A stretch of DNA of 64,000 nucleotides. Origin: Janibacter melonis (GTDB taxonomy: Bacteria > Actinomycetota > Actinomycetes > Actinomycetales > Dermatophilaceae). The translations under genes were made by a program, and so were the position numbers. The stretch covers positions 62,001 through 126,000 of the forward strand of contig NZ_JAJBZM010000002.1 in the NCBI RefSeq assembly GCF_020567375.1, written 5' to 3'. The notes below the pieces were generated by a model. That model was given only the letters and a program-made list of their open reading frames with translations. It had not been told where the DNA came from and ran no database searches. Below, piece by piece: positions 41,056 to 56,291 of the stretch; position 1 is the stretch's first letter; each line of letters starts with the position of its first letter.

Positions 41056-41850
41056 TCAGCTGTGGGCGAAGCGGGCCGTGACGCTGCCGAGCCCGGCGAA
41101 GGTGGCGGTGAAGGTGTCGCCCGGGGCGACCGGGCTCATGGCGGTGACGGAGCCGGGGAGGATGACCTCGCCCGCCTCGAGGGTCGTCCCGAGCGCGCCG
41201 AGGGTGTTGGCGAGCCAGACGAGCGAGGTGATCGGCGAGCCGAGGACGGCGCCGCCGGCCCCAGTCCCGATGACCTGGGCGTTGCGGTGGAAGACGCAGC
41301 CGACGAGGCGCAGGTCGACCTCGTGCAGGGGGGTCGGCGTCGAGCCGAGGACGTAGCCGCCCGAGCTCGCGTTGTCGGCAATGGTGTCGGCGAGGGTGAT
41401 CTTCCAGTCCGCGACGCGGCTGTCGACGACCTCGAGGGCCGGGAGAACGTAGTCGACCGCGGCGATCGCCTGGGTCACGGTGACGCCCGGGCCGGCCAGC
41501 GGAGACTTGAGGACGAAGGCGATCTCCGGCTCGACCCGCGGCTGCAGGAAGCGGTCGGCGGGGATCGGCTCGTGCTCGGCGTAGACGAAGTCGGCGAAGA
41601 GGTGGCCGAAGTCGGGCTCGGTGACCCCGAGCTGCTTCTGCATCGCGGCGGAGGTCAGCCCGACCTTGTGCCCGACGACCGTGCGCCCGTCCTCGGTCCA
41701 GCGGCGCACCTGCTCGAGCTGGATGCCGTAGGCGTCCTCGACCGTGAGCTCGGGGTAGTCCGCGGTGAGCGGCGGGATCGGGGTGTGGGTCTCGTAGGCC
41801 CGCAGCAGGCGCTGCGCTGCCTCCTGCTGGACCTGGCTCGGCTCGCCCAT
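41056..41850 (-). CDS. dmpE: 2-keto-4-pentenoate (2-hydroxypentadienoate) hydratase
   Basis: 264 residues of the same superfamily as Dmp[32 protein letters not shown] and [13 protein letters not shown]. It adds water to 2-hydroxypenta-2,4-dienoate. Read as hydratase because it leads the E-F-G order. The ATG at 41850 has GGAG seven bases upstream. First gene of the transcript dmpE-F-G-H-I-C; a GTTC-N8-GGAAC palindrome lies 66 bases upstream of its start. Confidence 0.87.
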
Positions 41851-41915
41851 GGGTCTCCTTCGACGGTGCGGACTTCGATCAAAACTAGGGATGTCGGGGG
41901 CGCGGTGGTCGGCTC

Positions 41916-41932
41916 GTTCCCTTCGGTGGAAC
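41916..41932. promoter_or_regulatory. Putative operator GTTC-N8-GGAAC upstream of dmpE
   Basis: GTTCCCTTCGGTGGAAC, an imperfect 17-bp palindrome 66 bases ahead of the dmpE start. The same pattern occurs upstream of the phenol hydroxylase operon and of the dmpQ-B operon, so it is a candidate binding site for one of the local IclR or AraC regulators. Confidence 0.55.
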
Positions 41933-42047
41933 GTGCGCCGGGTGCGTCCCGCAGCGACCTCACGAGGCTCCCGCACCCACCCCGGCCAGGGCTACGAAAC
42001 CGTCCCGATCAGCGGGACACCCCCGCCGCGGATGGTCGAGGGCCCTG

Positions 42048-42131
42048 CTGGTCGAGGTGCGACGGAGGAGCCTCGAGACCAGGCCCCAGCCGTTTGCTGG
42101 TCGAGGTGCGACGAAAGAGCCTCGAGACCAC
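42048..42131. repeat. Two REP-like palindromes
   Basis: CTGGTCGAGGTGCGACGGAG to CTCGAGACCAG at 42048-42082, and a near-identical copy with CGAAAGAGC at 42097-42131. Each can fold on itself and belongs to the dispersed family seen at 19183, 28951 and 63404-64000. Confidence 0.75.
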
Positions 42132-42147
42132 ACCCCCCCCCCAACTG

Positions 42148-42461
42148 CTCGAGAAGCTGGCAGCCGCGCGGGTTGCAACCCGAGCACCCGCCACCATCTC
42201 GAGGAGGCGGGGTCCCCCTTCGCCCGGGTCGAGGTGATCCCACGACCCCCAGCACACCCAGATACCTCGACCCGCGCCGCACCCCTCGATGACCGAGGTG
42301 CGAGGGGCGCCAGGCCCGAGCCTCGAGACCACACCGCCCGAGAAGCTGGCAGCCGCGCGGGTTGCAACCCGAGCACGCGCCAACATCTCGAGGAGGCTGG
42401 ATCCCCCTTCGCCCGGGTCGAGGTGTCGCCGCGACCCCCAGCACGCCCGGACACCTCGACC
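42148..42461. repeat. 125-base imperfect direct duplication
   Basis: Copies at about 42148-42272 and 42338-42461 share GAGAAGCTGGCAGCCGCGCG, then GGTTGCAACCCGAGCAC, ATCTCGAGGAGGC, CCCCCTTCGCCCGGGTCGAG and CGACCCCCAGCAC. Each copy has inner palindromes. No reading frame of note. Confidence 0.75.
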
Positions 42462-42548
42462 AGCGCATCCCCGTCGCCCGAGGAGCAGGCCACGACAGGG
42501 CAGACCCCCGCCACCTCGCGAGGTGACGGGGGTCCGGGGGGTGGCGGG

Positions 42549-43361
42549 TCAGTGGGTCTGGCGGCCGATCCGGCGGGCGGCGGCGCGCAGCAGGGGGACG
42601 ATGCGGTCCTCGCGGGCGACGACGGACTCGCTCGGCCCGAAGACCGAGATCGAGGCGACGGCGAGCTCGCCGCGCAGGACGGGCACGGCGATCGAGCTCA
42701 CCCCGTCGAAGGACTCGTCGACGGCCATGGCGTACCCCTTCGAGCGCACCCCGGCGAGCTCGTGCGCCCAGTCCTGCTCGGTGCGCACGGTGCCGCGCAC
42801 CCGCGGCGGGAAGCCGGCCTCGCGGCGGGCCCGGTCGACGGTGAGGCTGAAGGCGGCGATGGCCTTGCCCGAGCTCGTCACGTGGGCGGGGAAGCGTCGG
42901 CCGGCGTGACCGAGGATGTGCTCGCCAGCACCGAGCGCGATGCGCTCGAGGAAGACGACGTCGGCGCCGTCGGGGACCCCGAAGTTCACGGTGAGCCCGG
43001 TCTGGGTGGCCACCTGGCGAAGGGTGGGCAGCGCCCGGTGGCGCAGCTCGTGGCGCCCGATGGTCAGCTCGCCGAGCTCGTACAGGTGCAGCCCGAGACG
43101 GTAGAGGCCGGTCTCGGGGTCCTGCTCGATGAAGCCACGCCCGGCGAGCGTCGTGAGGACGCGGTGCACGGTGCTCTTGGCGATGCCGAGCCGGCGGGCG
43201 ATGTCGGAAACCCCGAGCTCGCCGTCGGCGGCGAAGCACTCGAGCACGTCGAGAGCCGTCGTCACCGAGCGCAGGCCACCGCCGTCGGACGGCTTGCGGC
43301 GCAACGGGGTCGACGCGCACCAGGCGGTCTCGACGGGCTGGATGACGGGCTGTGCTGACAT
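42549..43361 (-). CDS. IclR-family transcription regulator
   Basis: 270 residues. N-terminal winged helix-turn-helix with LRSVTTALDVLECFAADG and SDIARRLGIAKSTVHRVL; C-terminal IclR ligand domain with LTVNFGVPDGADVVFLERI and FPAHVTSSGKAIAA. ATG 43361 has GAGGAG. It is divergent from a second IclR gene with about 78 bases between starts. Lies in the middle of the phenol cluster and probably controls part of it. Confidence 0.9.
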   Translation of the reverse strand: MSAQPVIQPVETAWCASTPLRRKPSDGGGLRSVTTALDVLECFAADGELGVSDIARRLGIAKSTVHRVLTTLAGRGFIEQDPETGLYRLGLHLYELGELTIGRHELRHRALPTLRQVATQTGLTVNFGVPDGADVVFLERIALGAGEHILGHAGRRFPAHVTSSGKAIAAFSLTVDRARREAGFPPRVRGTVRTEQDWAHELAGVRSKGYAMAVDESFDGVSSIAVPVLRGELAVASISVFGPSESVVAREDRIVPLLRAAARRIGRQTH

Positions 43362-43439
43362 GGTGCTCTCCTCGGCAACGACGGTGTCGTGAGGTCTGTT
43401 GTGTCGACGATCCCGCCGCGTGTGCGGCATGATCAAGGA

Positions 43440-44192
43440 ATGCGTCCCGATGAGCGGAACACCGCTGACGACGGCGTCATCGCCCGTGCCAGCGCGATCC
43501 TCGACGCCGTCGCGAAGGGGGCGTCGGGGGTCCGGGCGATCGCCCGCGCGACCGATCTCCCGGTGAGCTCCGTGCACCGGCTCGTCGCCCAGCTCGTCGA
43601 GGTCCAGGTGCTCGAGCGTCTCGACGACCGCATCCGCCTGGGGCCCAAGCTCTTCGAGCTCGGCACCCAGGTGCCGGCCCATCGCGACCTGCGCGACGCC
43701 GCCGACCCCGTCATGGAGGACCTGCGAGCGGCGACCCACCACCGCGTGCACCTCGCGATGCTCGACGGCGTCGACGTCGTCTACCTCAAGATCCTCGGCC
43801 CGAACCTCGGCCTGGACTCGCGGCTCGGGGGTCGCCTGCCGGCCCACGCGACGGGGGTGGGCAAGGTGATGCTCGCGTACTCGCCGATGGCGACCGTGCG
43901 GGCTCGCGTCGAGGCCGGGCTGCCGCGCTTCACGCCACGGACGATCACCACGCCGGGCCAGCTGACCCAGGAGCTGCGCAAGATCCGCAGCGTCGGCATG
44001 GCGCTCGACCTCGAGGAGTCGACGGTCGGCGTCTCGTGCGTCGCGGCACCGGTCTTCGGCTCCGACCGCAAGATCCGCGCGGGCCTGTCGGTGACCGGGC
44101 CGACCCGCTCGATCGACCCGGCTCATCTGGGCATCGCCGTGCGCACCGCGGCCTTCACCCTCAGCCGGACCCTGCGCGACTCGGGGCTCTAG
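43440..44192 (+). CDS. IclR-family transcription regulator
   Basis: 250 residues from the ATG at 43440 (a GTG at 43389 would give 267). DNA-binding part GVRAIARATDLPVSSVHRLV; ligand domain with RVHLAMLDGVDVVYLKILG and LPAHATGVGKVMLAYS. The only plus-strand gene inside the catabolic block besides the AraC gene. The 3' end overlaps the hydrolase gene stop on the opposite strand by four bases. Start uncertain. Confidence 0.88.
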   Translation: MRPDERNTADDGVIARASAILDAVAKGASGVRAIARATDLPVSSVHRLVAQLVEVQVLERLDDRIRLGPKLFELGTQVPAHRDLRDAADPVMEDLRAATHHRVHLAMLDGVDVVYLKILGPNLGLDSRLGGRLPAHATGVGKVMLAYSPMATVRARVEAGLPRFTPRTITTPGQLTQELRKIRSVGMALDLEESTVGVSCVAAPVFGSDRKIRAGLSVTGPTRSIDPAHLGIAVRTAAFTLSRTLRDSGL

Positions 44193-45064
44193 CCCGGCTG
44201 CTGGTCGAGGAAGTCCAGGACCAGCTCGTTGAAGGCGGCGGCGTGCTCGATCTGCGTCCAGTGCCCGCACCTGCCGAAGACGTGCAGCCGCGCGTCGTCG
44301 ATCCACTCGAGCATCGTCAACGAGGTCGACAGCGGGATGACCTTGTCGTCGCGCCCGTGGACGAGCAGCACCGGGGCCTCGATCCCGCGGATCGAGCCCT
44401 CCGGGTGGGCCATCGCGTCGACCCACCGCTGGCGGGGCGCGGGGAACATCGAGGAGAAGGCCTCCATCGTCCCGCTGCGCGTCGAGGCGGCGTACCGGCT
44501 CGCGACGAGCTCGTCGGTGATGAGCGAGCTGTCGTACGCGAAGGTCTCGCGCATGAGCCGGCCCATCGTCTCGACCTCGGGCTCATAGCCCCACACCGCG
44601 TCGAGCCCCTCGGTGATGGCGAAGGGGACGCCGACGCTGCCCATGAGGACGACCGAGCGCACCCGCTCCGGGTGGTGGATCGCGAGCGCGAGGGCCATCG
44701 ACCCGCCGAAGGAGTTGCCGACGACGTCGACCCGGTCGACCTCGAGGGCGTCGAGGAGGTCGACGACCTGGCGCAGCCACACCTCGCGGCTGTACTCCTG
44801 GCCCTCCGGCACGTCGGTGAAGCCGAAGCCGGCGAGGTCCGGCGCGATGACGCGGTGCCGCGCGCCGAGCGCGGGGATCTGCAAGCGCCAGTTCGCGAAG
44901 GCGCTCACCCCCGGTCCGGACCCGTGGAGGAGGAGGACGGTCCCCCCTTCGCCCCCCGTCGGGGGACCGCTGTCGTGGTAGTTCGTGCGTAGCTGCCCGG
45001 TCTGGACGGACCGACCGATCTCGGGGTTCGTCGGGGCGGCAGTCGGGGTCGTCGTGCTCGTCAC
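44189..45064 (-). CDS. dmpD: 2-hydroxymuconic semialdehyde hydrolase (DmpD-like alpha/beta hydrolase)
   Basis: 291 residues. LLLHGSGPGVSAFANWR oxyanion region, nucleophile Ser in VVGNSFGGSMA, acid in VHGRDDKVIP and His in GRCGHWTQIE. It cleaves 2-hydroxymuconic semialdehyde to formate and 2-hydroxypentadienoate (the hydrolytic branch). GTG at 45064; GTG at 45076 overlapping the dmpP stop as GTGA is the alternative. Last gene of the hydroxylase operon. Confidence 0.9.
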   Translation of the reverse strand: MTSTTTPTAAPTNPEIGRSVQTGQLRTNYHDSGPPTGGEGGTVLLLHGSGPGVSAFANWRLQIPALGARHRVIAPDLAGFGFTDVPEGQEYSREVWLRQVVDLLDALEVDRVDVVGNSFGGSMALALAIHHPERVRSVVLMGSVGVPFAITEGLDAVWGYEPEVETMGRLMRETFAYDSSLITDELVASRYAASTRSGTMEAFSSMFPAPRQRWVDAMAHPEGSIRGIEAPVLLVHGRDDKVIPLSTSLTMLEWIDDARLHVFGRCGHWTQIEHAAAFNELVLDFLDQQPG

Positions 45065-45072
45065 TGCTCGGA

Positions 45073-46167
45073 TCACCTCTTGATCAGGGGGGACTTGAGA
45101 CCGCCGTCGACCTTGTCGGCCTCGTTGAAGAAGTCCTCGCGGTAGATGTCGCGGGGGAAGAGCCGCTTGGACATGAGGACCTTGAGCGCCGACTCGACCA
45201 TGAGCGGCGGGCCGCACAGGTAGCCGGCGCAGCCGGAGAGCTTGTCGTGATCGGCGGCGATGACGTCGGTCACCAGCCCGTATCCGTAGCGGTCGGGGTC
45301 GTCCCCCGAGGCGGCGACCTCCTCCGGGGTCTCGTCGGACAGGCACGGGCGGAAGGTGAAGCCCTCGTGCTCCTCCTCGAGCGCCCGGAAGAAGTCGACG
45401 TCGTAGAGCCAGGCGCGGGAGCGGCCGCCGGCGTAGAGGGTCAGCTCGCCCTCGTACTCGCCGTTCTCCAGGGCGTGGCGCACCATCGACTTCATCGGGG
45501 CCATCCCGGTGCCGCCGCCGACCATGATCCCGTGGCGGTCGTCGCCGGTCTTGAGCACGAAGCGCCCGTACGGCCCGGAGAGCGCGATCTGCTGGCCGAC
45601 GGCGAGGTCCTTGAAGACCCAGCCGTCCGACCCGCGCCCGCCCTCGACCTTGCGGATGTGGAACTCGAGGGTCTTGGTCTGCGTGGGCGGGTTGGCCATC
45701 GAGTACGTGCGGTCGACCTCGGGGCCGTCGGCGCACGCGGGGACGAGCAGCTTCATGTACTGCCCGGCGTTGAAGCCCATCTCGCGGTCGAGCTCGACGA
45801 CGAGACGGCGGGTGTCGGTCGCGATGTCCTCGAGCACGGTGACCGTGCCCGTGTAGTCGTCGACGGGGAAGACCTCGAGGTCCTCGTCGACGTCGAGGTC
45901 GGCCTCGATCGTCACGTCGGAGCGAGGCTTGGCGCAGCAGGTGAGCAGCTTCTCCTCGCGCTCGAAGTCCATGAGCGCGAAGGAGCTGGCCTCGCCGTGG
46001 TCCACCTCACCGTCGAGCCACTCGCTCTTGCACGTGGCACAGGTGCCGTGGGTGCACGAGTGGGGCAGCCACACGCCGTTGCGCAGGCAGGCCTCGAGGA
46101 TGGTCTGGTCCTCGTCGCACTCGATCTCGCGACCGAGCGGCTCGACGGTGATGGTGTACCGCGTCAT
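45073..46167 (-). CDS. dmpP: Phenol hydroxylase reductase component P5
   Basis: 364 residues. Plant-type [2Fe-2S] domain (about 1-90) with CTHGTCATC and a later Cys in LLTCCAKP; FAD domain with RTYSMANPP; NAD domain with VGGGTGMAPMKSMVR and the end CGPPLMVESAL. It carries electrons from NADH to the diiron hydroxylase. It follows dmpO by 42 bases. Confidence 0.95.
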   Translation of the reverse strand: MTRYTITVEPLGREIECDEDQTILEACLRNGVWLPHSCTHGTCATCKSEWLDGEVDHGEASSFALMDFEREEKLLTCCAKPRSDVTIEADLDVDEDLEVFPVDDYTGTVTVLEDIATDTRRLVVELDREMGFNAGQYMKLLVPACADGPEVDRTYSMANPPTQTKTLEFHIRKVEGGRGSDGWVFKDLAVGQQIALSGPYGRFVLKTGDDRHGIMVGGGTGMAPMKSMVRHALENGEYEGELTLYAGGRSRAWLYDVDFFRALEEEHEGFTFRPCLSDETPEEVAASGDDPDRYGYGLVTDVIAADHDKLSGCAGYLCGPPLMVESALKVLMSKRLFPRDIYREDFFNEADKVDGGLKSPLIKR

Positions 46168-46209
46168 GACAGTCCTCGCTCTTCGTGGGTACCGCCGGGG
46201 CGGCCGCGA

Positions 46210-46548
46210 TCAGGCGGCCGCACCCCGCATGGACAGCGTGGCCTTGTGGGCGATGCCGAGGTCGGCGAGCGACTTCTGCGGGTCGGGGGCGAAGGGCTCG
46301 CCCCCGAGAGTCCACTCGAAGTCGCTCCAGTCCTTGCCCTCGGCGAGCTCGGGGTCGGTGCCGGCCCACGGCACGAGGACCTGCGACCAGAAGTCGCCGA
46401 AGGTCATCGAGCGCGGCGCCCGCTGCGTCACCGCGGCGCAGAACCACGGGTTGTCGCGCCACCACACGTGGACCATCTGGTCCTCGCCGTAGAGCTCCTG
46501 GCGCGAGCGCGACGGGAAGTCGTACGCGCCGATCGTCTTCAGAGCCAT
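46210..46548 (-). CDS. dmpO: Phenol hydroxylase subunit P4
   Basis: 112 residues with KTIGAYDFPSRSRQELYGED at the start and MVHVWWRDNPWFCAAVTQRA in the middle, typical of the gamma (DmpO/TomA4) subunit of the hydroxylase. It starts one base after the dmpN stop. An Ala-rich end follows. Confidence 0.92.
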   Translation of the reverse strand: MALKTIGAYDFPSRSRQELYGEDQMVHVWWRDNPWFCAAVTQRAPRSMTFGDFWSQVLVPWAGTDPELAEGKDWSDFEWTLGGEPFAPDPQKSLADLGIAHKATLSMRGAAA

Positions 46549-46549
46549 C

Positions 46550-48148
46550 TCAGCTCCTCCCCTCAGCGGCCACGGCGGCCGCGTCGTCGTTGACGGCAGC
46601 TGTGGCGTCGGCGGCGGTGCCGTCGTCGGCGGCGGTGCCGCGGCCGTGCCACTTCTCCCAGTTCTGGTGGTCGACGGAGCCGATGTACTCGCCGCCGTCG
46701 CCCTCCTGCAGGCCGTACCAGTCGAGGACCTCGGGCACGCTCGGACCGCCGCACGCGCCCTGGAAGATCTGGTGCACGGGCAGCCAGGCCTGGACGTACT
46801 TCTCGGGCTCGCGCTCGAAGATCCACTGGCAGCCGTCGGAGCAGGTGTTGTACAGCTCGCCCTCGTGCTCGGACTCGCGCTGGACGATCTCGTCCGAGCC
46901 GTCGGTGGCGCGGAAGAGCATCGGCACCTGGCAGACCTGGCACAGCTGGGGCAGCCCGCGGTAGAAGGTGCGCCCGCCCTCGGCGACGATCTTCTTCTCC
47001 TTCTCCCACAGCGGGAGGAAGTCCTTGGTGAAGGCCTCGCCGTAGTTGTCGGAGAGCCACTGCAGGTGCTCGTCGTCGGGGACGGTCGTCGTGAAGGACG
47101 CGGCGAAGGCGAACTGGTAGAGCGTCCAGTAGACCTCGTGGCTGAGGATGTCCTTCTCGGCGATCGCGTCGTCGACGTGCTTCGGCGGGCGGATCCCGTA
47201 GAACTCGAGGTCCTTGAAGAGACCGTTGAGCATCTGCTCCTCGAAGTAGAGCTCGAAGCTCTCCTTCCAGCTCATGACCTTGCGCGGGAGCATGTAGTCG
47301 AGCATCTGGGCGATGAGCGCCGTGACGCGGTAGCCCCGCCAGAACCACTTGTCGACCCACGCCTGGACGATCGGGACGTTGTCCTCGTCCTGCTCGAGGA
47401 TGAACTTGATCGCCTCGAGGCCGAGCGTCATGTGCCGCGACTCGTCGGACTGCGCCGAGAAGCCGAAGGTCATCGTCGGCAGGTCGCCGTTGAAGGACGC
47501 CCCCGACATGAAGGGCACGAAGAGCAAGTTGGTCAGCAGGTACTCGAAGGAGAAGCCGACGGCGATGAGGAACTCGAAGGGGCCGGCGGTGAGGGCGTCG
47601 TCGAAGAAGGACTTCGGGACGGAGAGGTACCAGACGCGGTCGTGCATCTGCACGTAGTTGTGGAAGCCGCCGTAGTACTTGTTGTAGTTGCTCAGCGTGT
47701 GCGTCTCGGTCTGGAAGTGACGCATCTCGTCGATCGACTGGCACATGGCCGCGAAGCGCGGCCCGGGACCGGCGAGGTGACGCGCGAGGAAGGAGAAGTG
47801 GCGGTGGGCCGCGTACTCCAGCGGCGCGACCCCCTGGATGAAGAGCTTCATCGCGTTGAGGTAGTTCGCGTCGGTGAGGGAGAGGTGGCCCTGCCCCTGG
47901 GCGAAGCCGTCGAGGACGGCGTAGAGGCGCTTGTCCTTCTCGGCCTGGTACTTGCAGTACGCGTCGATCGTCAGGCGGAAGGGGTCCTCCCAGGCCGCCC
48001 AGTCGTGGATCTTGATCCCCTCGAACTCGAGGTAGGGGAACATCTCGTCCTTCTCGACGTAGCTCGGCTCCCAGTCCAGGTCACGGGTGAGCGCCTGGTA
48101 GCGGGACTTCATCGAGAGCTTGCGGGTCTTCTTCGGTGCGATGGTCAT
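46550..48148 (-). CDS. dmpN: Phenol hydroxylase large (alpha) subunit P3
   Basis: 532 residues, bacterial multicomponent monooxygenase alpha subunit. Diiron ligands: EYAAHRH and DEMRHFQ (first E-x-x-H pair), and the later DESRHMTLG. C-terminus has QLCQVCQVPMLFR and an N..CSDGCQWIFEREP zinc-like region typical of phenol hydroxylases. It inserts one oxygen atom into phenol to give catechol. Part of the L-M-N-O-P order with 14 bases after dmpM. Confidence 0.96.
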   Translation of the reverse strand: MTIAPKKTRKLSMKSRYQALTRDLDWEPSYVEKDEMFPYLEFEGIKIHDWAAWEDPFRLTIDAYCKYQAEKDKRLYAVLDGFAQGQGHLSLTDANYLNAMKLFIQGVAPLEYAAHRHFSFLARHLAGPGPRFAAMCQSIDEMRHFQTETHTLSNYNKYYGGFHNYVQMHDRVWYLSVPKSFFDDALTAGPFEFLIAVGFSFEYLLTNLLFVPFMSGASFNGDLPTMTFGFSAQSDESRHMTLGLEAIKFILEQDEDNVPIVQAWVDKWFWRGYRVTALIAQMLDYMLPRKVMSWKESFELYFEEQMLNGLFKDLEFYGIRPPKHVDDAIAEKDILSHEVYWTLYQFAFAASFTTTVPDDEHLQWLSDNYGEAFTKDFLPLWEKEKKIVAEGGRTFYRGLPQLCQVCQVPMLFRATDGSDEIVQRESEHEGELYNTCSDGCQWIFEREPEKYVQAWLPVHQIFQGACGGPSVPEVLDWYGLQEGDGGEYIGSVDHQNWEKWHGRGTAADDGTAADATAAVNDDAAAVAAEGRS

Positions 48149-48162
48149 GGTGATCGGTCCTC

Positions 48163-48453
48163 TCAGTGGTCCCAGGCGATGACGATCTCGTCGTCATCCC
48201 ATTCCTGGATGTGTCCGAAGTAGCTGACGATGGCCATCTGGAACTCGTGGGTCTCCCACGGGCGGCCGAGCTTCTCCTCGACCGTGGCCTGCTGGATGAC
48301 GAGCCGGCCGGGGGCGGCGATGCGCACGAGGCCGGGCGAGTGGGTGAGCTCGGCCTCGGGGTTGTCGGCCTCGATCGCCTCGATGACCCCGCGGTTGTTC
48401 TCCGACTCCTGGATGTCGACGCCGACCTTGCGCGTCTGGGTGGTCTCGCTCAT
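48163..48453 (-). CDS. dmpM: Phenol hydroxylase coupling (activator) protein P2
   Basis: 96 residues, MmoB/DmpM family: VGVDIQESENNRGVIEAIEA near the start and VRIAAPGRLVIQQATVEEKLG. No cofactor; it docks on the hydroxylase and controls oxygen activation. Between dmpL (11 bases) and dmpN. Confidence 0.94.
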   Translation of the reverse strand: MSETTQTRKVGVDIQESENNRGVIEAIEADNPEAELTHSPGLVRIAAPGRLVIQQATVEEKLGRPWETHEFQMAIVSYFGHIQEWDDDEIVIAWDH

Positions 48454-48464
48454 GGGGTGCCTCC

Positions 48465-49472
48465 TCAGGCGGTCGTGGGGACGACGTGGGCGGCGCGCAG
48501 CTGCTCGGCCTTGGCGTCGAGAGCCTCGCCGGCGCCGGCGTCGAGCAGGCGGTCGATCTTCTTGGCGACCGGGCGAAGGGCGATCTCGGCCTTCGCGAGG
48601 GCCTCCTCGACGGTCGAGGCGAGCAGCTCGGCGTTCTTCTCACCGGTCTGCGGGTCCTCGCGCCACGTGGCGAAGAGCTTCTCGATCCACGTGCGCTGCT
48701 CGGCCAGCCAGCCGGCGAGGTGCTGCATCGCCAGCGAGTACGCCGGGGCCCCGCCGGTGACGGCCTTGTCCTCGAGGTGCACGTAGAGCAGGTCGTAGAG
48801 CATCTCGTCGAGGACGTAGAGGGTGACGAGCCCGACGCCCCAGTCGTCGACGCAGATCGTCTTCTCCATGTGCTCGCGCAGCGGCTGCAACGCGTCGTCC
48901 TCGAGCCACGTCGTCTTCGCCGTCGCGAGCTGGTCGGCCGTGCCGCCGCCCAGTGCGATGCCGATCCGGGAGATGACCTGGGCGTTGCCGGTGCGGTCGA
49001 AGCCGGCGTAGCTGAGGCACTGGGCCAGGGCCGAGCCGTTGCTGAAGCGGGCCGCCGCCGTGAGGATCAGCTGCGCGCCGCTCTCGTAGTGGCGCATCGG
49101 GATGACGACCTCGGAGACGACGTCCTTCCAGTCCTGGGGCAGCCGGCCGAGCAGGTCGCGGTCCTCGATGTAGTCCAGCGAGGTCTTGAAGCTGTCGTAG
49201 GCCTCGGCGCGGTTGGCGACGTACGGCGCGTAGTAGTACTGCCGCGGGTCGAGGAAGGCGTTGGGGTCGCTGAGGACGAAGGCGCTGAAGTCGTCGCCGT
49301 ACAGCTGGGCCTGCGGCGCCCACATCGGGGCGTAGTGGAAGTTCTCCTTGGGCTGGATGTCGACCGAGCCCTCCTGGTACCGGGTGGCCGGCCGGTCGCC
49401 GAAGATCGCGGCGATGTGGTCGAAGGTGTGGCGCTGGGTCTCGATGACCTGCGTCTTCAGCTCGTACTGCAC
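48465..49472 (-). CDS. dmpL: Phenol hydroxylase beta subunit P1
   Basis: 335 residues of the monooxygenase beta-subunit fold, diiron-like helices without metal ligands: QRHTFDHIAAIFGDRPATRY, RQYYYAPYVANRAEAYD and the Arg/Trp-rich end. It forms the structural (alpha-beta-gamma)2 hydroxylase with N and O. 24 bases after the upstream unknown gene. Confidence 0.94.
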   Translation of the reverse strand: MQYELKTQVIETQRHTFDHIAAIFGDRPATRYQEGSVDIQPKENFHYAPMWAPQAQLYGDDFSAFVLSDPNAFLDPRQYYYAPYVANRAEAYDSFKTSLDYIEDRDLLGRLPQDWKDVVSEVVIPMRHYESGAQLILTAAARFSNGSALAQCLSYAGFDRTGNAQVISRIGIALGGGTADQLATAKTTWLEDDALQPLREHMEKTICVDDWGVGLVTLYVLDEMLYDLLYVHLEDKAVTGGAPAYSLAMQHLAGWLAEQRTWIEKLFATWREDPQTGEKNAELLASTVEEALAKAEIALRPVAKKIDRLLDAGAGEALDAKAEQLRAAHVVPTTA

Positions 49473-49496
49473 GGTGTCCTCCTGGGTGGGCGTGGG

Positions 49497-49937
49497 TCAG
49501 GAGGCGACGGGGCGCTGCGCCCCTGCCTCGACGATGAGTCGGACGAGCAGGTCGGGCAGGGCATCCGCGCTGTCGAGCTCCTGGGGGAGCTCGCTGTCGA
49601 AGCCCTGGCCGACGAGGCGCCCGTAGGCGATGCCGTCCTCGAAGGTGGTGGAGATGCGGGCGGCCCGCTCGTCCATGCGCACCTCGAAGGCGAGCTCGCT
49701 GGGCAGCGTCTCGTCGACGAGGGAGAGGTGGTGGCGCTGCGGGCCGAGCACCGCGTTGGCCTCGCACAGCAGCTGCTCGGCGAGGGAGCGGATGGCGACG
49801 TGCCGGTCGGCGCCGGTGCCCGTGGAGATCCGCTGGCTGATGCGGGTGGTCGGCATCGGCGCGATCGCGCCCACGTCGGGCTGGTCGTCGGCGTCCACAC
49901 CGACCACGTCTGCCACTCGGAGCATGAAGGGGGTCAT
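49497..49937 (-). CDS. Unknown protein in the position of dmpK
   Basis: 146 residues. The ATG at 49937 has GAGGAG at about 11 bases. It is the first gene of the phenol hydroxylase operon, where DmpK/TomA0 (about 70-95 residues, hydroxylase assembly) is expected, but it is longer and I do not see clear DmpK similarity. Mixed alpha/beta, no Cys-rich or membrane segment; hydrophobic strands LSLVDETLPSELAFEVRMD in the middle and a helical end DLLVRLIVEAG. A small hydroxylase-associated or ligand-binding protein is possible. Confidence 0.65.
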   Translation of the reverse strand: MTPFMLRVADVVGVDADDQPDVGAIAPMPTTRISQRISTGTGADRHVAIRSLAEQLLCEANAVLGPQRHHLSLVDETLPSELAFEVRMDERAARISTTFEDGIAYGRLVGQGFDSELPQELDSADALPDLLVRLIVEAGAQRPVAS

Positions 49938-50243
49938 CGTGCTGACTCCTCGGTCCGTTGCGTTGCGTGGCTCCCGGCGAGGGGAGGGCACGTCGCCGGC
50001 GTCGTTGCACGGCGTGGGAGGGACGTTATGAGCGCGTCGGCGCGGGCACGATCCGCTGAGCGCAGCGGCTATCCGGGGAGCGCACCCACCCTCTCGGGTG
50101 GGCTCGCCGCCCCCTTCGCGCCGGGGATCTGGGCCCGGCGAAGGGGGGTCCACGGCGTTCCGCGCTGCGGAACGCTTCTCGTCGGCGGCTTCCCGACGGC
50201 CCCCCGGGTGCGCATACTCACGAGACGAAGGAGGTGAGGTGCG
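49938..50243. promoter_or_regulatory. Divergent control region of the phenol hydroxylase operon and the AraC gene
   Basis: 306 bases without a gene. It contains the 17-bp GTTC-N8-GGAAC palindrome at 50157-50173, a second palindrome CCGCTGAGCGCAGCGG at about 50053-50068, and converging CCCCTTCG/CGAAGGGG copies. The AraC gene has a strong AAGGAGGTGAGG ribosome site. Confidence 0.6.
50157..50173. promoter_or_regulatory. Putative operator GTTC-N8-GGAAC upstream of the phenol hydroxylase operon
   Basis: GTTCCGCGCTGCGGAAC, a perfect palindrome around a central base run. Shared pattern with 41916-41932 and 53203-53219. Confidence 0.6.
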
Positions 50244-51182
50244 ATGCGGCACCTCCATGAGAGCACGCCCACCTTCTCCGACTGGGAGGGCGTGCACGAC
50301 GCGGTCGCCGACGCATACTTCCCGCATGCCCTGCGGCCGCGCTCCGAGGGCTCTGCCGCCCGCTCCGAGCTCGAGGTCGTCGACCTCTCCCTCGTCCGCG
50401 TCGCGCACATCCGCTTCGGCGCGACCGTCGACATCTCGACCGACCACGCCGGTGCCGTCGCGATCAACCTCCAGCTGCGCGGCTCGATGGAGTCCGTCCT
50501 CGGCGGCACGTCGGTGACGACCGAGCCCGGCCAGGCCGCGATCTTCCCCGCGGACACCCCGGCCCGGTTGCCGGCGTGGACCCCCGACAGCGACGTGCTC
50601 GGGCTCCGCGTCGACGAGGACTACCTCGCCCGAGAGAGCGAGCGGGTGCTCGCCCGCAAGGGCCTCGTCCTGCCCCGGGTCGTGGACCTCAGCGGGCCGG
50701 AGGGGCGCGCCTGGGTGGCGATGGCCCGCACGACCCTGCGCAACGCGCGCGACTGCGGCGGCGTCCTCTACCGCGACCCCCGCGTCGCCGAGTCGGTCTC
50801 GAGCATGCTCGTTACCGGGCTGCTCCTCGCGGCGGTGCCCGAGGACTCGCTGACGAGCACCCGGCCGCGCCCGGTGCACCGCGCCGTCGAGGCGATGGAG
50901 GCCGACCCCGCGCGGCCGTGGTCCCCCGCGGACCTGTCCGAGATCGCCGGCTGCAGCGTGCGCCGGCTGCAGCAGGCCTTCCGAGAGCACGTCGGGACCT
51001 CGCCGCTGGCCTACCTGCACGACCTGCGCCTCGACCGGGTGCGGGTCGACCTCGCCGCGGGCGCGGGGCCCGTCACGGATGTGGCGATGCGCTGGGGCCT
51101 GCACCACATGGGCCGTTTCGCCGCCGACTACAAGCGCCGCTTCGGCGAGCTGCCGAGCCAGACCGCCGCCCGCGCCGCCTGA
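50244..51182 (+). CDS. AraC-family transcription regulator
   Basis: 312 residues. N-terminal sensor region of about 200 residues of the AraC-binding-like type (AINLQLRGSMESVLGGTS, PGQAAIFPADTPARL), and a C-terminal double helix-turn-helix (LSEIAGCSVRRLQQAFREHVG, MGRFAADYKRRFGELPS). Divergent from the hydroxylase operon, it is the probable activator that responds to phenol or a metabolite. A hairpin terminator follows. Confidence 0.9.
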   Translation: MRHLHESTPTFSDWEGVHDAVADAYFPHALRPRSEGSAARSELEVVDLSLVRVAHIRFGATVDISTDHAGAVAINLQLRGSMESVLGGTSVTTEPGQAAIFPADTPARLPAWTPDSDVLGLRVDEDYLARESERVLARKGLVLPRVVDLSGPEGRAWVAMARTTLRNARDCGGVLYRDPRVAESVSSMLVTGLLLAAVPEDSLTSTRPRPVHRAVEAMEADPARPWSPADLSEIAGCSVRRLQQAFREHVGTSPLAYLHDLRLDRVRVDLAAGAGPVTDVAMRWGLHHMGRFAADYKRRFGELPSQTAARAA

Positions 51183-51245
51183 CCCCTTCGCCCCCTCCGC
51201 CCCTTCGCCCGCCCCACCCCTTCGCGCAGCCCACCCCGGGCATGC

Positions 51246-51280
51246 CGAAGGGGACCCACCACCTGGTGGGTCCCCCTTCG
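51246..51280. terminator. Hairpin with CGAAGGGGACCCACC arms
   Basis: 15-bp stem with one bulged C on the right arm. It lies between the converging AraC and GlcG-like genes. Confidence 0.75.
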
Positions 51281-51323
51281 TACGTCATGGGTCGCGATGC
51301 CCCCCGCTCTGCCGCGGGTACCA

Positions 51324-51357
51324 CGCAGTACTGGTCGTGATCGCGATCAGTACTGCG
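51324..51357. repeat. Inverted repeat CGCAGTACTG...CAGTACTGCG
   Basis: Perfect 10-bp arms at 51324-51333 and 51348-51357 around a spacer that itself contains GATCGCGATC. It lies 24 bases before the GlcG-like stop; operator or element end not decided. Confidence 0.5.
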
Positions 51358-51380
51358 CCGTAGCGCGGGGGCGAAGGGGG

Positions 51381-51818
51381 TCAGCGCACGGCGTCGGCGC
51401 CGGCCTGGGCGACCTGCTTGTCCTGCGCCGCGCTGCCGCCCGAGGCGCCGACGGCGCCGACGAGCTCGCCGTCGACGACGACCGGGACTCCGCCGCCGAA
51501 GGCCGCGACGCCCTCGCGACCGCCGATGCCGTCGCGGACCGCGGGCTCGCCCTCGATCGCCGCGTACAGCTCGTCGGTCGGGGCCCCTCCGAAGGAGACG
51601 ACGGTGCGGGCCTTGTCCCTCGCGATGTCGCTGGATCCGGCGAAGGCCCCGTCCATCCGGGCGAAGGCGAGCAGGGCGCCGCCGGGGTCGACGACCGCGA
51701 CGTTCATCGCCGCCCCGATCGAGGCGGCCTGCGACAGCGCGGCGTCGACCGCGGCCCGGGCGCCAGCGAGCGTGAGCGTCGCCGACGTCCGGGTGTGCGC
51801 GTGGTGCGCCCCGCTCAC
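51381..51818 (-). CDS. GlcG/HbpS-family protein
   Basis: 145 residues from GTG at 51818, which overlaps the dioxygenase stop as GTGA. Motifs: LTLAGARAAVDAALSQA, VAVVDPGGALLAFARMDGA, FGGGVPVVVDGELVGAVGASGG. The family includes heme-degrading/binding HbpS and GlcG, often found in aromatic and glycolate catabolic operons. A role in protecting or reactivating the dioxygenase (a job the ferredoxin does in Pseudomonas) or binding a pathway compound is conjecture. Confidence 0.8.
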   Translation of the reverse strand: MSGAHHAHTRTSATLTLAGARAAVDAALSQAASIGAAMNVAVVDPGGALLAFARMDGAFAGSSDIARDKARTVVSFGGAPTDELYAAIEGEPAVRDGIGGREGVAAFGGGVPVVVDGELVGAVGASGGSAAQDKQVAQAGADAVR

Positions 51819-52744
51819 GTGAGGACGGTGGTGAAGCGCTCGTTGAGCTCGCGGGAGTGGTAGAAGATCCCCTTGCCGATCTGGTCGACCGTCCACACCG
51901 TCGTCGGGCGGTCCGGGAAAGCGAGGTAGCCGCCGGAGAAGACCTCGTTGCGGTTGCCCGACGGGTCGAAGAAGTAGACCGTCTGGCCGCGCGTGATGCC
52001 GTGGCGGGTCGGGGTCACGTCGATCGGCACGTCGTCCATCGACATGAGGTCCGCCGCGCGGCCGACGTCGTTCCAGCTGTCGAGGCGGAAGGCGAAGTGG
52101 TGCAGCTTGCCCTGCGGGCCGCCGATGACAGCGAGCTGGTGGATCTGGTTGTTCGAGGTCATCCACGTGCCGACGAGGTCGTGGTCCTCGTCGAGGCTGG
52201 TCTGGACCCGCTCGGTCGCGTAGAAGCCGAAGACGTCCTTCAGCATCCGCTCCATGAGCTTCGGGTCCTCGGTCGTGATGAGCGAGTGGTCGAGAGCGGG
52301 GGCGCCGACGCCGACGAGGTGACGGGGGAAGGCGTCGGGGTTGTGCGTCCCGACCTCGGTGCCGTACGCCGTGGCCTGGTGGTAGACCTCGAAGACGTGC
52401 TCGCTCGGGGTGGTGAAGCGGATGCCGTCGCCGATCTCGGGGTTCTCCCCCTCCGCCATCCGCTCGACGGTCAGGCCGAAGGCCTTCGCCTTGGACTCAA
52501 TGTCGTCGATGTCGGACTCGTGCTCGACCTTCCAGCCGTACTTGACGACGCCGACGCCACCCTCCTCGAGGACGAGGGAGTGGTGGTCCCACTCGTCCCA
52601 GCCCTTGTAGAAGGTGCGCTTGGCACCGTCGGCGGCCGTGTCCGAGTGGGTCTCGTACAGGCCGAGCGTGCTCGCGTAGTGTTCCTTGGCCTCGGCCATG
52701 TCGGTGACGCGCACGTGCGCATACCCCAGACGCATGATTCCCAT
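51815..52744 (-). CDS. dmpB: Catechol 2,3-dioxygenase
   Basis: 309 residues, type I extradiol dioxygenase with two vicinal-oxygen-chelate domains. Iron ligands are in the C-terminal domain: His in LDHSLITT, His in LHHFAFRL and Glu in NRNEVFSGG. It opens catechol next to the hydroxyls to form 2-hydroxymuconic semialdehyde. ATG at 52744 has AAGGAG. It sits two bases past the ferredoxin gene, as in dmpQ-B operons. Confidence 0.95.
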   Translation of the reverse strand: MGIMRLGYAHVRVTDMAEAKEHYASTLGLYETHSDTAADGAKRTFYKGWDEWDHHSLVLEEGGVGVVKYGWKVEHESDIDDIESKAKAFGLTVERMAEGENPEIGDGIRFTTPSEHVFEVYHQATAYGTEVGTHNPDAFPRHLVGVGAPALDHSLITTEDPKLMERMLKDVFGFYATERVQTSLDEDHDLVGTWMTSNNQIHQLAVIGGPQGKLHHFAFRLDSWNDVGRAADLMSMDDVPIDVTPTRHGITRGQTVYFFDPSGNRNEVFSGGYLAFPDRPTTVWTVDQIGKGIFYHSRELNERFTTVLT

Positions 52745-52746
52745 GG

Positions 52747-53115
52747 TTACTCCTTCTCGGTGCCGGCCGCCAGCGCCCGGGCGCGCTCGCGCGCCTTGGC
52801 GTTGATCTGGCGGAGGATCGGGTTGACCAGACGCAGCTCGCTCTGGCGCATCTGGATGGTGATGTCCGAGTCCGGGACGGCTCGGCAGCTCAGGCAGGTC
52901 CCGTCGGTGCGCTCCTCCGCGCTCACGACGGAGTCGGCGACCGGCCGGTTGTAGGTGAAGTCGCCCTCGAGGACGTCGAGCTTGCAGATGCCGCAGCCCC
53001 CCCGCTTGCACCCCACGGTGTAGGCGTACCCGGCCTTGTACAGGCCGGACAGCACCGTCTCGTCCGGCTCGAGGTACACGACCTCGTCCAGCGCGGGGAT
53101 GGACACGTGGGGCAC
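52747..53115 (-). CDS. dmpQ: [2Fe-2S] ferredoxin, DmpQ/XylT-like
   Basis: 122 residues from GTG at 53115 with AAGGAG upstream. Cys ligands in GCKRGGCGIC (pattern C-x4-C-x2-C) and in GTCLSCRA. In Pseudomonas this ferredoxin re-reduces inactivated catechol dioxygenase, matching its place ahead of dmpB. First gene of the dmpQ-dmpB-GlcG operon, preceded by the operator-like palindrome. Confidence 0.92.
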   Translation of the reverse strand: MPHVSIPALDEVVYLEPDETVLSGLYKAGYAYTVGCKRGGCGICKLDVLEGDFTYNRPVADSVVSAEERTDGTCLSCRAVPDSDITIQMRQSELRLVNPILRQINAKARERARALAAGTEKE

Positions 53116-53202
53116 CGGCGCTCCTTCGCGGTCGGTCGACGGCGGCTCCAGCGCCGCTCTCCCCGTGAGAGTGCCCGGGCGAAGGGGGGAGCCTCCACGC
53201 GC

Positions 53203-53219
53203 GTTCGCGCGTGCGGAAC
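53203..53219. promoter_or_regulatory. Putative operator GTTC-N8-GGAAC upstream of dmpQ
   Basis: GTTCGCGCGTGCGGAAC, about 88 bases upstream of the dmpQ start. Third member of the shared palindrome set. Confidence 0.55.
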
Positions 53220-53267: not shown

Positions 53268-53903
53268 TCAGCCGTAGGTGTCGCGCGGGCCCCGCATGCC
53301 CGGGGCGCGGCGCGGGCCCTTCTTCCACGACGGTGCGCTCGGCCCGACCACCCGCAGCTCGACCACCGTCTCGGGGCCGACCTCCTCGGCGAGCCGGCCG
53401 AGGAGGCTCGAGGTGAGCAGCCGCAGCTGGGTGGCCCACGCCGTCGAGTCGGCGCGCACCGTGAGGACGCCGTCCTCGAAGGACACCGGCGCGCTGTGCT
53501 CGGCGACCTGCGACCCGACGAGATCCGGCCAGCGCGACATCACCGACCCGGCCGCGACGTCGGTGCGCCACCCGCGGTCGGCGATCATCCGCTCGATCTG
53601 GTCGCCGAGCAGCTCTGGGTCGCGCCCGGTGGGGATCGCCGACCCTTCCGGCTCCATCCCCCGACGCACCCGGCGCCGGCGCGGCTTCATGCCCGGGCGC
53701 AGCCCGCGGCCCGCGGCGACGGCCCGCGCCCGCGACAGGGCCGTGGCCGCGGCGTCCTCGACCTCGCCGAGCGCCTCGTCCTGCGCGGCACCCTCGTCCT
53801 GCGCGGCGTCGTCGTGACCGGCGCCGTCGTGACCGGCGCCGTCGTGACCGGCGCCGAGACCTCCGTGCGCCCCGGCCCCGGGCTCCTCGCTCGACCCGCT
53901 CAT
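53268..53903 (-). CDS. DciA-type DUF721 protein
   Basis: 211 residues. The N-terminus has a repeat [16 protein letters not shown] encoded by three exact 15-base units (53811-53855); the C-terminal DUF721 domain (about 110-200) has [29 protein letters not shown] and [11 protein letters not shown]. Such proteins load the replicative helicase (DciA). The start overlaps the recF stop by ATGA. End of the origin block on this side. Confidence 0.87.
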
Positions 53904-55108
53904 GCCGGGCTGACCTCCCCCTTCGTCACCGCGAAGCGGGCACCGCTGAGCTCCTCCGGCACGTCGGCCCCCACGGCGGCGGTGATGAGCACCTGCTCGG
54001 AGCCGGCGACGAGACCCGCGAGGCGGGTCCGGCGGCCCGAGTCGAGCTCGGCGAAGACGTCGTCGAGGACGAGGACGGGGTCGTCGTCGAGGTCGTGCTG
54101 GAGCAGGCGGTAGGCGGCGAGGCGCAGCCCCAGGGCGAAGGACCACGACTCGCCGTGGCTCGCGTACCCCTTCGCCGGCATCTCGCCGAGCGCCAGGGTG
54201 ATGTCGTCGCGGTGCGGCCCGACGAGGCTCACGCCGCGGTCGAGCTCCTGGTCACGGACCTGGGCCATCCCGTCGAGCAGCTCCTCGCGCAGCCGCTCGA
54301 CAGGCGGCACGTCCTGCGCGCTCTCGAAGCCCTCGGCGAGCGCCTCGCCGACCGGGCCCGGGATCGAGGAGCGGTAGCGTGCGGTCGCCTCGCTGACGCT
54401 GGCGCTCACCTCGCCGTAGGTCTGGGTGAGGTGGGGGACGAGGTCGGTGAGCAGGCGCAGGCGGGCGTAGAGCAGCTGTGCCCCGACGGTGGCCAGCCGG
54501 TCGTCCCAGATGTCGAGGGTGCGCATCGCCTCCTCCCGGGCGGCGCCCGGGTCGACGCCCGCGGGCACCCGGGCCCGACGGCCCCGGCCGCGCTTGTCGG
54601 CACCGGCCTGCTTGAGCAGGGCGGAGCGCTGGCGCACGACCTTGTCGTAGTCGCCCCGGACCCCCGCCCAGCGCGGCTGGCGCTGGACGAGCAGGTCGTC
54701 GAGGAAACGGCGGCGCTGGTCGGGGTCGCCCTTGACGAGGGCGAGGTCCTCGGGGGCGAAGAGCACGGAGCGCACGGTGCCCAGGACGTCCCGGGTCCGG
54801 GGGAGCGGCGAGCGCCCGAGCTTGGCCCGGTTGGCCCGGCCCGGGTTGATCTCGAGCTCGACGACCTGCTCACGACCGTCGCGCACCACCGCGGCACGGA
54901 TGATCGCCCGCTCGGCACCGACCCGCACGAGCGGCTGGTCGGTGCTCACCCGGTGGCTCGAGAGGGTCGCGAGGTACCCGACCGCCTCGACGAGGTTGGT
55001 CTTGCCCTGGCCGTTGAGCCCGACGAGGGTCGTGATGCCCGGCTCCAGGGCGAGATCGGCCGCCGCGTAGCTGCGGAAGTCCCCGACCGTGAGGTGCCGG
55101 ACGTGCAC
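53900..55108 (-). CDS. recF: DNA replication and repair protein RecF
   Basis: 402 residues, SMC-like ATPase without a long coiled coil: Walker [14 protein letters not shown], signature region [13 protein letters not shown] and Walker [15 protein letters not shown]. It loads RecA onto gaps. The start is one base from the gnd stop, in the order gnd-recF-dciA. Confidence 0.95.
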
Positions 55109-55109
55109 C

Positions 55110-56210
55110 TCAGCTGGAGCTGCGGGTGGAGCGGGTGCCCGACGTCGGGCCCTTCGAGCCGCCGGTGCTGCCGCTGCCCGAGGAGGGGCCCGCCGAGGCG
55201 GCCTTGCGCCCCTTCGCCTGCGCGGTGCCGGCGTCCTTCGTCGGCTTCTCCTTCTTCGCGGCCTTGCGCTGGGTGCTCTTCGCGTCCTTCGGACCGGTCG
55301 CGGCCTCGGCGCGCAGCTGCTCGCCCTCGGCGGTCGTCATCACCTGGTGCCCGCCGAACTGGCCGCGCAGCGCGGCGACGGCCTGCATCGTCGGGCTGGA
55401 GTCCTGGCGCGAGGCGAAGCGGGCGAAGAGCGAGGCCGAGATGACCGGCATCGGCACGGAGTTGGCGATCGCCTCCTCGACGGTCCACCGGCCCTCACCC
55501 GAGTCGGCCGTGTAGTCGGAGACGTCGTCGAGCGTGGGGTTCTCCTCGAGCGCCTTGACCATGAGGTCGAGCAGCCAGGAGCGCACGACGGTGCCACGGC
55601 TCCACGCCTTGAAGGCACCGGGCACGTCGGTGACGATGTCCTTCTTCTCGAGCAGCTCGTAGCCCTCGGCGTAGGCGTGCATGAGGCCGTACTCGATGCC
55701 GTTGTGGACCATCTTCACGTAGTGGCCGGCGCCGACGGCACCGGCGTGCACGAAGCCCTCGTCGCGCGGGCCCTCGGGGCGCAGCGCGTCGAAGATCGGC
55801 ATCGCCCGGGTGACGTGCTTCTTCAGCCCGCCGACCATGAGGCCGTAGCCGTTCTCGAGACCCCAGATGCCGCCGGACACCCCGCAGTCGAGGTACCCGA
55901 CGCCCTGCGCCTTGAGCATCTCGGCGTGCACGGCGTCGTCGCTGAAGCGGGAGTTGCCGCCGTCGATGACGAGGTCGCCCTCGTCGAGGCGCTCGGCGAG
56001 GTCGGCGACGACGGAGCGGGTGATCTCACCGGCCGGCACCATGACCCACACGACCCGGGGCGCCTCGAGCTGGTCGATCATGTCCTGGACGCTCGTGCTG
56101 TCCGAGATGGACTGGTCGCGGTCGTACCCGACGACCTCGTGACCGGCGCGGCGGATGCGCTCGCGCATGTTGCCGCCCATCTTGCCCAGGCCGATGAGTC
56201 CCAGCTGCAT
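55110..56210 (-). CDS. gnd: 6-phosphogluconate dehydrogenase (decarboxylating)
   Basis: 366 residues. Rossmann [14 protein letters not shown], substrate loop [10 protein letters not shown], catalytic [10 protein letters not shown]. This is the short actinobacterial type. The last 60 or so residues are Lys-, Ala- and Ser-rich low-complexity and are not part of the family fold. Gives ribulose 5-phosphate, CO2 and reduced cofactor in the pentose phosphate pathway. Placed between dnaN and recF, the standard actinobacterial order. Confidence 0.93.
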
Positions 56211-56291
56211 GAGGTGCTCCTTGGTGTGTCGACGTTCGGGTCGGGGGTGCGGGGTGCCCCGCCCGCGCGCGGCGGGCCGGGCGAAGGGGGG

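Follow-up and report, generated by a model that had tools for sequence, protein, structure and literature searches.

A predicted IclR-type operator shared by the phenol meta-cleavage genes of Janibacter melonis

A cluster of phenol and catechol degradation genes in Janibacter melonis carries a repeated 17-base palindrome, in its strict form GTTCC-N7-GGAAC, which appears to be the operator of an IclR-family regulator encoded within the same cluster. The cluster spans 11.3 kb of the window analyzed, a stretch of 64,000 nucleotides (nt) from a 3.49-Mb genome (GCF_020567375.1, contig NZ_JAJBZM010000002.1), and all positions below are those of the window. We consider it likely that this regulator, IclR-1, activates its target genes from the palindrome and reaches the phenol hydroxylase genes through a cascade that runs over an araC-type gene. 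Computation establishes the sites and their conservation, association with IclR-1 and spacing to −10 hexamers, as well as a separate direct repeat at the hydroxylase promoter. What was at the outset a visual observation is extended here to a regulon of four to five sites, for which a probable binder can be named and a mode of action and transcription starts can be predicted.

The initial annotation had described three 17-mers with GTTC and GGAAC ends, located 66 to 220 bases ahead of a first gene and not seen elsewhere in the window, and each of these statements was borne out. Site 1 (GTTCCCTTCGGTGGAAC, 41916–41932, minus strand), ahead of the dmpE operon, has a counterpart in the congeneric locus L101 introduced below. 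The second site (GTTCCGCGCTGCGGAAC, 50157–50173, plus strand), a perfect palindrome (7+3+7), lies between the phenol hydroxylase genes and araC, and the third (GTTCGCGCGTGCGGAAC, 53203–53219, minus strand), ahead of the ferredoxin–catechol 2,3-dioxygenase operon, is asymmetric (GTTCG…GGAAC). Edge distances to the first genes are 66 (ATG at 41850), 88 (GTG at 53115) and 220 bases (ATG at 49937). GTTC-N8-GGAAC has five strand-wise matches in the window, all within the three sites, as compared to a mean of 0.38 in 100 dinucleotide shuffles, none of which reached five. The relaxed pattern GTTC-N9-GAAC matches the same three places only (0.57 expected; one shuffle in 100 reached three). For the genome as a whole, the annotation had proposed a motif scan, with many copies unrelated to catabolic genes as the outcome that would speak against a regulon; the relaxed pattern was found seven times in total, three of them inside the cluster, and its reversed control once. 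The binomial chance of at least three of seven copies falling in this interval is 1.2e-6, or approximately 7e-4 when corrected for the choice of interval. The four off-cluster copies had no obvious catabolic neighbors in the 3-kb stretches around them, as judged from translations by eye with no family search, and they were rejected as further regulon members.

Conservation was examined in 80 loci retrieved with the phenol hydroxylase large subunit as query. The comparison set consists of 55 of these (L008–L062, 0.99 Mb), mostly Actinomycetota by record title, with two labeled Chloroflexi and two labeled only “uncultured bacterium”; the other 25 loci (L063–L087, 431 kb) were excluded from regulator counts. 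In the 55 loci, the relaxed pattern occurs 103 times as compared to two occurrences of its reversed control, while other spacings (3–15) give 6 to 32 copies and the palindromes GATC-N9-GATC and GAAC-N9-GTTC give 33 and 8. The strict motif accounts for 80 copies in L008–L062; in the 25 excluded loci it is absent, with three relaxed copies. Of 89 strict sites in the 55 loci and four further ones, 87 fall between −60 and 450 nt upstream of a cluster gene, chiefly at the starts of DmpK, DmpE, ferredoxin and DmpL. Locus gene calls were mechanical and some of their starts wrong, so that site-to-gene and flank-orientation counts were instead made by tblastn with the window proteins, and starts are extrapolated. 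The motif may serve as a marker for phenol/catechol meta-cleavage regulons in Actinomycetota. Tandem strict palindromes 47 to 84 nt apart occur in eight loci (L033, L035, L036, L047, L049, L050, L051 and L058), and L056 has one pair 146 nt apart; these spacings exceed the 18 to 22 nt reported as typical.

A scoring matrix was built from 79 unique sites, all from other genomes; these had been picked by GTTCC and GGAAC, which predetermines the outer positions, and the central positions are near background composition. In the window, the matrix ranks 50157 (25.1), 41916 (20.3), 53203 (14.2) and a fourth cluster position, 43444 (13.25), above all else, followed by an off-cluster place at 6.5. That the palindromes are chance or dispersed-repeat sequence without function has next to no probability. 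Dispersed repeats do exist in the region (a genome-wide 9-mer and the stretch 42046–42466, both described below); against this stand the shuffle counts, clustering within the genome, the matrix ranking and the scarcity of the motif in L063–L087, and the cross-genome enrichment and upstream placement in effect refute it. A shared operator for a regulator encoded in the cluster, and hence a single regulon, as the annotation had supposed, is well supported by placement and cross-genome conservation.

The exact pattern overlooks at least one further operator and probably two. The first is predicted between the divergent genes iclR-1 and iclR-2 (GTTCCGCTCATCGGGAC, 43444–43460, minus strand), where alignment with L101, L008, L015, L009, L014 and L105 shows counterparts in a conserved block; a site at the regulator’s own gene accords with the autoregulation usual in the IclR family. 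This operator extends over the initial codons of iclR-2, its center lying 12 nt into the gene, likewise in five other loci; iclR-2 may have a leaderless transcript that the regulator represses when bound there. The second is a probable auxiliary operator ahead of dmpE (GTCCCGCTGATCGGGAC, 42002–42018, minus strand), 86 bp upstream of site 1. Its matrix score is only 4.3, below two off-cluster places; in L101, a conserved block at the corresponding position scores 12.4 and the 86-bp spacing to the dmpE palindrome is kept.

Three regulators are encoded in the cluster. IclR-1 (42549–43361, minus strand) belongs to the IclR family by its N-terminal HTH_IclR (PF09339, E 3.9e-19) and C-terminal IclR_C (PF01614, E 1.5e-26) domains, both above cut-off. 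Its divergent paralogue IclR-2 (43440–44192, plus strand; domain search on 43389–44192) has the same two domains and is 34% identical to it. The araC-type gene (50244–51182, plus strand) encodes the AraC/XylS domain set (PF14525, E 1.2e-32; PF12833 [HTH_18], E 8.9e-22). The initial annotation had left the binder as an IclR or an AraC protein, and co-occurrence across loci favors the IclR half of that proposal, most likely IclR-1. Among the 40 loci longer than 15 kb, the strict motif is present in 26 of 28 with an IclR hit and in 3 of 12 without (p = 3.7e-5), as compared to 4 of 5 with AraC and 25 of 35 without (p = 1, no association); these p values are a guide only because the loci share descent. 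Over all 55 loci, the motif accompanies a member of the IclR-1 clade in 28 of 29 cases and is found in 9 of the 26 others. No strict motif was found in five loci with a common protein of approximately 800 residues (in L021, the one that was scanned, a protein with a LuxR-type helix-turn-helix) or in L024, where a LysR-type gene adjoins the hydroxylase.

Binding by AraC itself, suggested by the position of 50157 between the hydroxylase genes and the divergent araC, is very improbable. The motif shows no association with AraC across loci; L013 has AraC and lacks the palindrome on its 10.6-kb contig, and the AraC loci have a different sequence, a direct repeat, in common. The strongest case for an IclR over an AraC binder is the congener G037, a genome listed as 100% complete (locus L101, G037:C4:455500-475000). 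There, no AraC match was detected at E ≤ 0.001 and PF02332 phenol hydroxylase was not found, while both iclR genes are retained; palindromes precede ferredoxin and dmpE, and degenerate sites stand in the iclR intergenic region and, additionally, ahead of dmpE. AraC as the binder was rejected on these grounds. In L101, the gene for catechol dioxygenase is followed by that for the hydrolase with neither araC nor the phenol hydroxylase genes between them, and the remaining cluster is syntenic; we read this as a hydroxylase–AraC module that was gained or lost.

Another alternative, that IclR-2, or both IclR proteins jointly, bind the palindromes, is distinctly improbable in our estimate. IclR-2 belongs to the same family, the two genes diverge around one site, and the recognition-helix pattern KS[ST][AV]HR, found in 33 of 33 IclR-1 rows, also occurs in 11 of 21 IclR-2 rows. 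This pattern is absent from the IclR-2 of the window, however, and the strict motif is present in 13 of 13 loci whose IclR hits are of the IclR-1 type only and absent from L044, which has two IclR-2-type hits only. IclR-1 is therefore retained as the probable binder. In a family sample of 119 genomes from 53 genera, the 23 genomes with an IclR-1 hit (E ≤ 1e-50) contain a mean of 4.04 strict copies, as compared to 2.20 in the 96 without (Mann–Whitney p = 1.6e-5).

The distance from palindrome to promoter is informative about the mode of action. Across 131 flanks of 90 nt, each oriented toward the closest gene of the cluster, the −10-like hexamer TANNNT occurs 43 times, and 36 of these lie 28 to 29 nt past the palindrome; when gene information was disregarded (178 flanks), the figure was 29 of 36. 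The operator center is accordingly placed at approximately −49. Among 59 promoters aligned on [TC]ANNNT, a −35 consensus was absent (four with at least 4/6 matches to TTGACA, as compared to 3.0 in shuffles). Two promoters of the window fit the 28 to 29 nt rule: dmpE, with TAGTTT (41882–41887, minus strand) 28 nt beyond site 1, and ferredoxin, with CACTCT (53168–53173, minus strand) 29 nt beyond the site at 53203. A fixed −10 spacing with no −35 element suggests an activator that abuts RNA polymerase. Alternatively, IclR-1 could be a repressor released by effector, with the fixed spacing reflecting hindrance of polymerase rather than contact. This is unlikely, though not negligible: the family includes repressors, activators and dual regulators according to the available passages of Suvorova and Gelfand (2021, PMC8222616), a −35-like element is present at the iclR-1 promoter and the intergenic operator overlaps the iclR-2 start. 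Against repression, the operator is placed ahead of the −35 position, its distance being constant in several promoter classes, and the −35 consensus is lacking.

For the site at 50157, the initial annotation had assumed a role in front of phenol hydroxylase, as one of three palindromes upstream of all three catabolic transcripts. That description suits the dmpE and ferredoxin–catechol dioxygenase transcripts; it omits the site between the iclR genes, and 50157 fits araC better. The center of the palindrome is 79 nt before the araC start in the window and its counterparts are at 75 to 76 nt in L008, L015 and L104, where 27 to 28 nt separate them from a −10-like hexamer in the direction of araC (window, 39 nt). 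On the hydroxylase side, the distance is 158 to 169 nt in the same three loci (window, 228 nt), and no −10 is found 28 to 29 nt away. It is more likely, on these spacings, that 50157 serves araC rather than phenol hydroxylase. The hydroxylase promoter would instead be addressed through a direct repeat of approximately 21-bp period (50051–50084, minus strand), a probable AraC site with TAACGT (50023–50028) 22 nt beyond it; two repeats of this period near a promoter are what characterizes AraC/XylS operators. We take the repeat to resemble XylS-type boxes. CGGAT[AC]G with TANNNT 22 to 23 nt past the last half is found in all seven AraC loci scanned (the window, L008, L009, L013, L015, L038 and L104), and five of eight AraC loci have a paired repeat that conforms to the strict pattern. 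In L009, the direct repeat is located away from the hydroxylase genes. L023, with an AraC of 32% identity, showed neither the repeat nor a spaced TANNNT in the stretch examined.

Several results weigh against a regulon of this kind or against activation as its mode. The araC −10 hexamer CATACT (50213–50218, plus strand), at 39 nt, is approximately one helical turn further from the palindrome than the rule predicts, and at iclR-1 a −35-like TTGATC (43431–43436) accompanies GATCGT (43407–43412, minus strand) at 31 nt, also off the rule. Repressors are common among IclR proteins. The nine loci with the strict motif and no IclR-1-clade hit (of 26 lacking one) include several short contigs as well as L052 and L061, which have a remote IclR-1 relative and an IclR-2-type protein, and with a similar helix in half of the loci, IclR-2 may share in the binding. 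Genomes of the family sample without an IclR-1 hit still average approximately 2.2 strict copies; some two copies per genome are thus background, and an off-cluster match is not to be taken as a target. Of 200 symmetrically permuted matrices, the best reach 25.1, 19.8, 15.6 and 12.6 for ranks 1 to 4, although their means are 10.2, 7.3, 5.7 and 4.7. The relaxed pattern has four copies in G037, two of them in the cluster, as compared to 20 of its reversed control, and GTTCCGCNNNGCGGAAC with up to two mismatches has 17 places in the J. melonis genome as compared to 20 for the reversed control. Genome-wide counts are by themselves weak evidence, and as the latter two do not exceed their controls, the regulon is defined by placement and conservation rather than by mere counts. 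Finally, aromatic-metabolism genes are reported as under-represented in the operator subgroup to which the motif is closest (PMC8222616, in the passages available).

Taken together, we infer binding, activation, an effector and a cascade as follows. A dimer or tetramer of IclR-1 would bind the palindrome immediately before a promoter in which a −10 hexamer is present and a −35 is not recognizable, and would most likely activate in response to a pathway effector, with phenol, catechol or a ring-cleavage product as candidates. Predicted direct targets are the ferredoxin–catechol 2,3-dioxygenase operon (53203), the dmpE operon (41916, with 42002 as probable auxiliary site), the iclR-1/iclR-2 intergenic region (43444) and araC (50157). 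AraC would then activate phenol hydroxylase through the repeat at 50051–50084, and this two-step order, IclR-1 to AraC to phenol hydroxylase, is the simplest reading of the sites. It would represent a case of an upper pathway wired into a lower-pathway regulon. A wider generalization, which we put forward tentatively and at slightly short of an even chance, is an IclR activator regulon for phenol meta-cleavage that is widespread in actinobacteria, with the hydroxylase as a plug-in. Where AraC is present, the IclR-1 operator would drive araC at a similar −10 spacing and AraC would drive the hydroxylase; where AraC is absent, the operator would drive the hydroxylase directly; and where both are lost, as in G037, the rest of the regulon would stay intact.

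The motif is of a known type. IclR group 1 operators of subgroup (ii), GTT-11-AAC, have the consensus GTTYCRYW3RYGRAAC in the passages available of PMC8222616; the window motif is likewise 17 bp long with equal spacing, and 50157 agrees with the consensus except in the A/T-rich W3 center, which is GCT there. The broader group 1 consensus with an N3 center is fitted by 50157 with no mismatch, while 41916, 53203, 43444 and 42002 each deviate. As a search pattern, this consensus was discarded as too strict for degenerate sites: it finds four places in the J. melonis genome (reversed control, one), of which 50157 is the only one in the cluster. Two Corynebacterium glutamicum regulators are comparable, again from the available passages of PMC8222616. 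GenR, listed with ATTCC-N7(5)-GGAAT and, by the title of a study cited there, both an activator and a repressor, is likewise an actinobacterial IclR-type regulator of aromatic catabolism with a TTCC-N7-GGAA core; it differs in its gentisate pathway and in an outer base that is A/T rather than G/C. PcaR, with GTTCGC-N3-GCGAAC, has a 17-bp GTTC…GAAC inverted repeat with an N3 center but differs in its protocatechuate pathway and at position 5 (C to G). IclR-1 scores 119.1 with TIGR02431 (PcaR/PcaU/PobR), where the cut-off is 284.75, and is under the NCBIfam cut-offs for every family listed for it. The Rhodococcus aph cluster, with the AraC-type AphR and AphQ and the IclR-type AphS, is similar in gene order, in that an AraC gene diverges from those for phenol hydroxylase and the meta-pathway operon includes an IclR gene, but serves a 4-alkylphenol pathway with other hydroxylase genes (aphAB); in the available passages of that paper no shared operator is seen, and “inverted repeat” and “binding motif” do not occur (PMC6710988). 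Among the papers listed in a search of chiefly open literature, none described this operator in actinobacterial phenol clusters. What is new to us is the regulon, together with its −10 spacing and the wiring of araC.

The target genes were assigned as follows. The first gene after site 1 encodes a dmpE-like hydratase (41056–41850, minus strand; PF01557) whose best match, TIGR03220, scores 288, below the cut-off of 408.8. The hydroxylase operon begins with an open reading frame at the DmpK position (49497–49937, minus strand), which has no Pfam or NCBIfam match and has tblastn counterparts before dmpL elsewhere. It continues with the hydroxylase subunits (46550–49472, minus strand), which we take, from their position, to be DmpL (48465–49472), a small subunit (48163–48453) and DmpN (46550–48148), with PF02332 in both large subunits. 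The site at 53203 is followed by a dmpQ-like ferredoxin (52747–53115, minus strand; PF00111, GTG start) and catechol 2,3-dioxygenase (51815–52753, minus strand; TIGR03211 above cut-off). The cluster adjoins a replication-origin-like region (53268–59614), the genes of which are, by their translations, presumably recF, gnd, dnaN and dnaA; a RecF match beside the ferredoxin gene is also found in L101, L102 and L104.

Two classes of repeated sequence were observed in and around the cluster. The stretch between iclR-1 and dmpE (42046–42466) contains dispersed repeats, including a 134-nt unit in two copies of 90% likeness and a 42-nt unit in three copies. The commonest 9-mer of the window, CCCCCTTCG, has 44 copies as compared to 0.95 expected (e.g., at 2239, 13091/13110, 50110/50139 and 53180). 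Copies adjoining operators (50139 and 53180) were considered as a second shared operator element and rejected as part of the regulon, because the 9-mer is repeated genome-wide: 1939 copies (954 and 985 per strand), as compared to 20 of the reversed sequence. Copies lie both inside and between genes, some as close inverted pairs (three in the window). No DNA uptake sequences of Actinobacteria were described among the papers listed in the literature search; the pattern resembles what we take to be that of the uptake sequences of Neisseria and Haemophilus. Massive enrichment is seen in two of the 53 genera of the family sample, in all seven of their genomes (1311–1939 copies), as compared to at most 80 copies in the other 112 genomes, and the 9-mer merits separate study.

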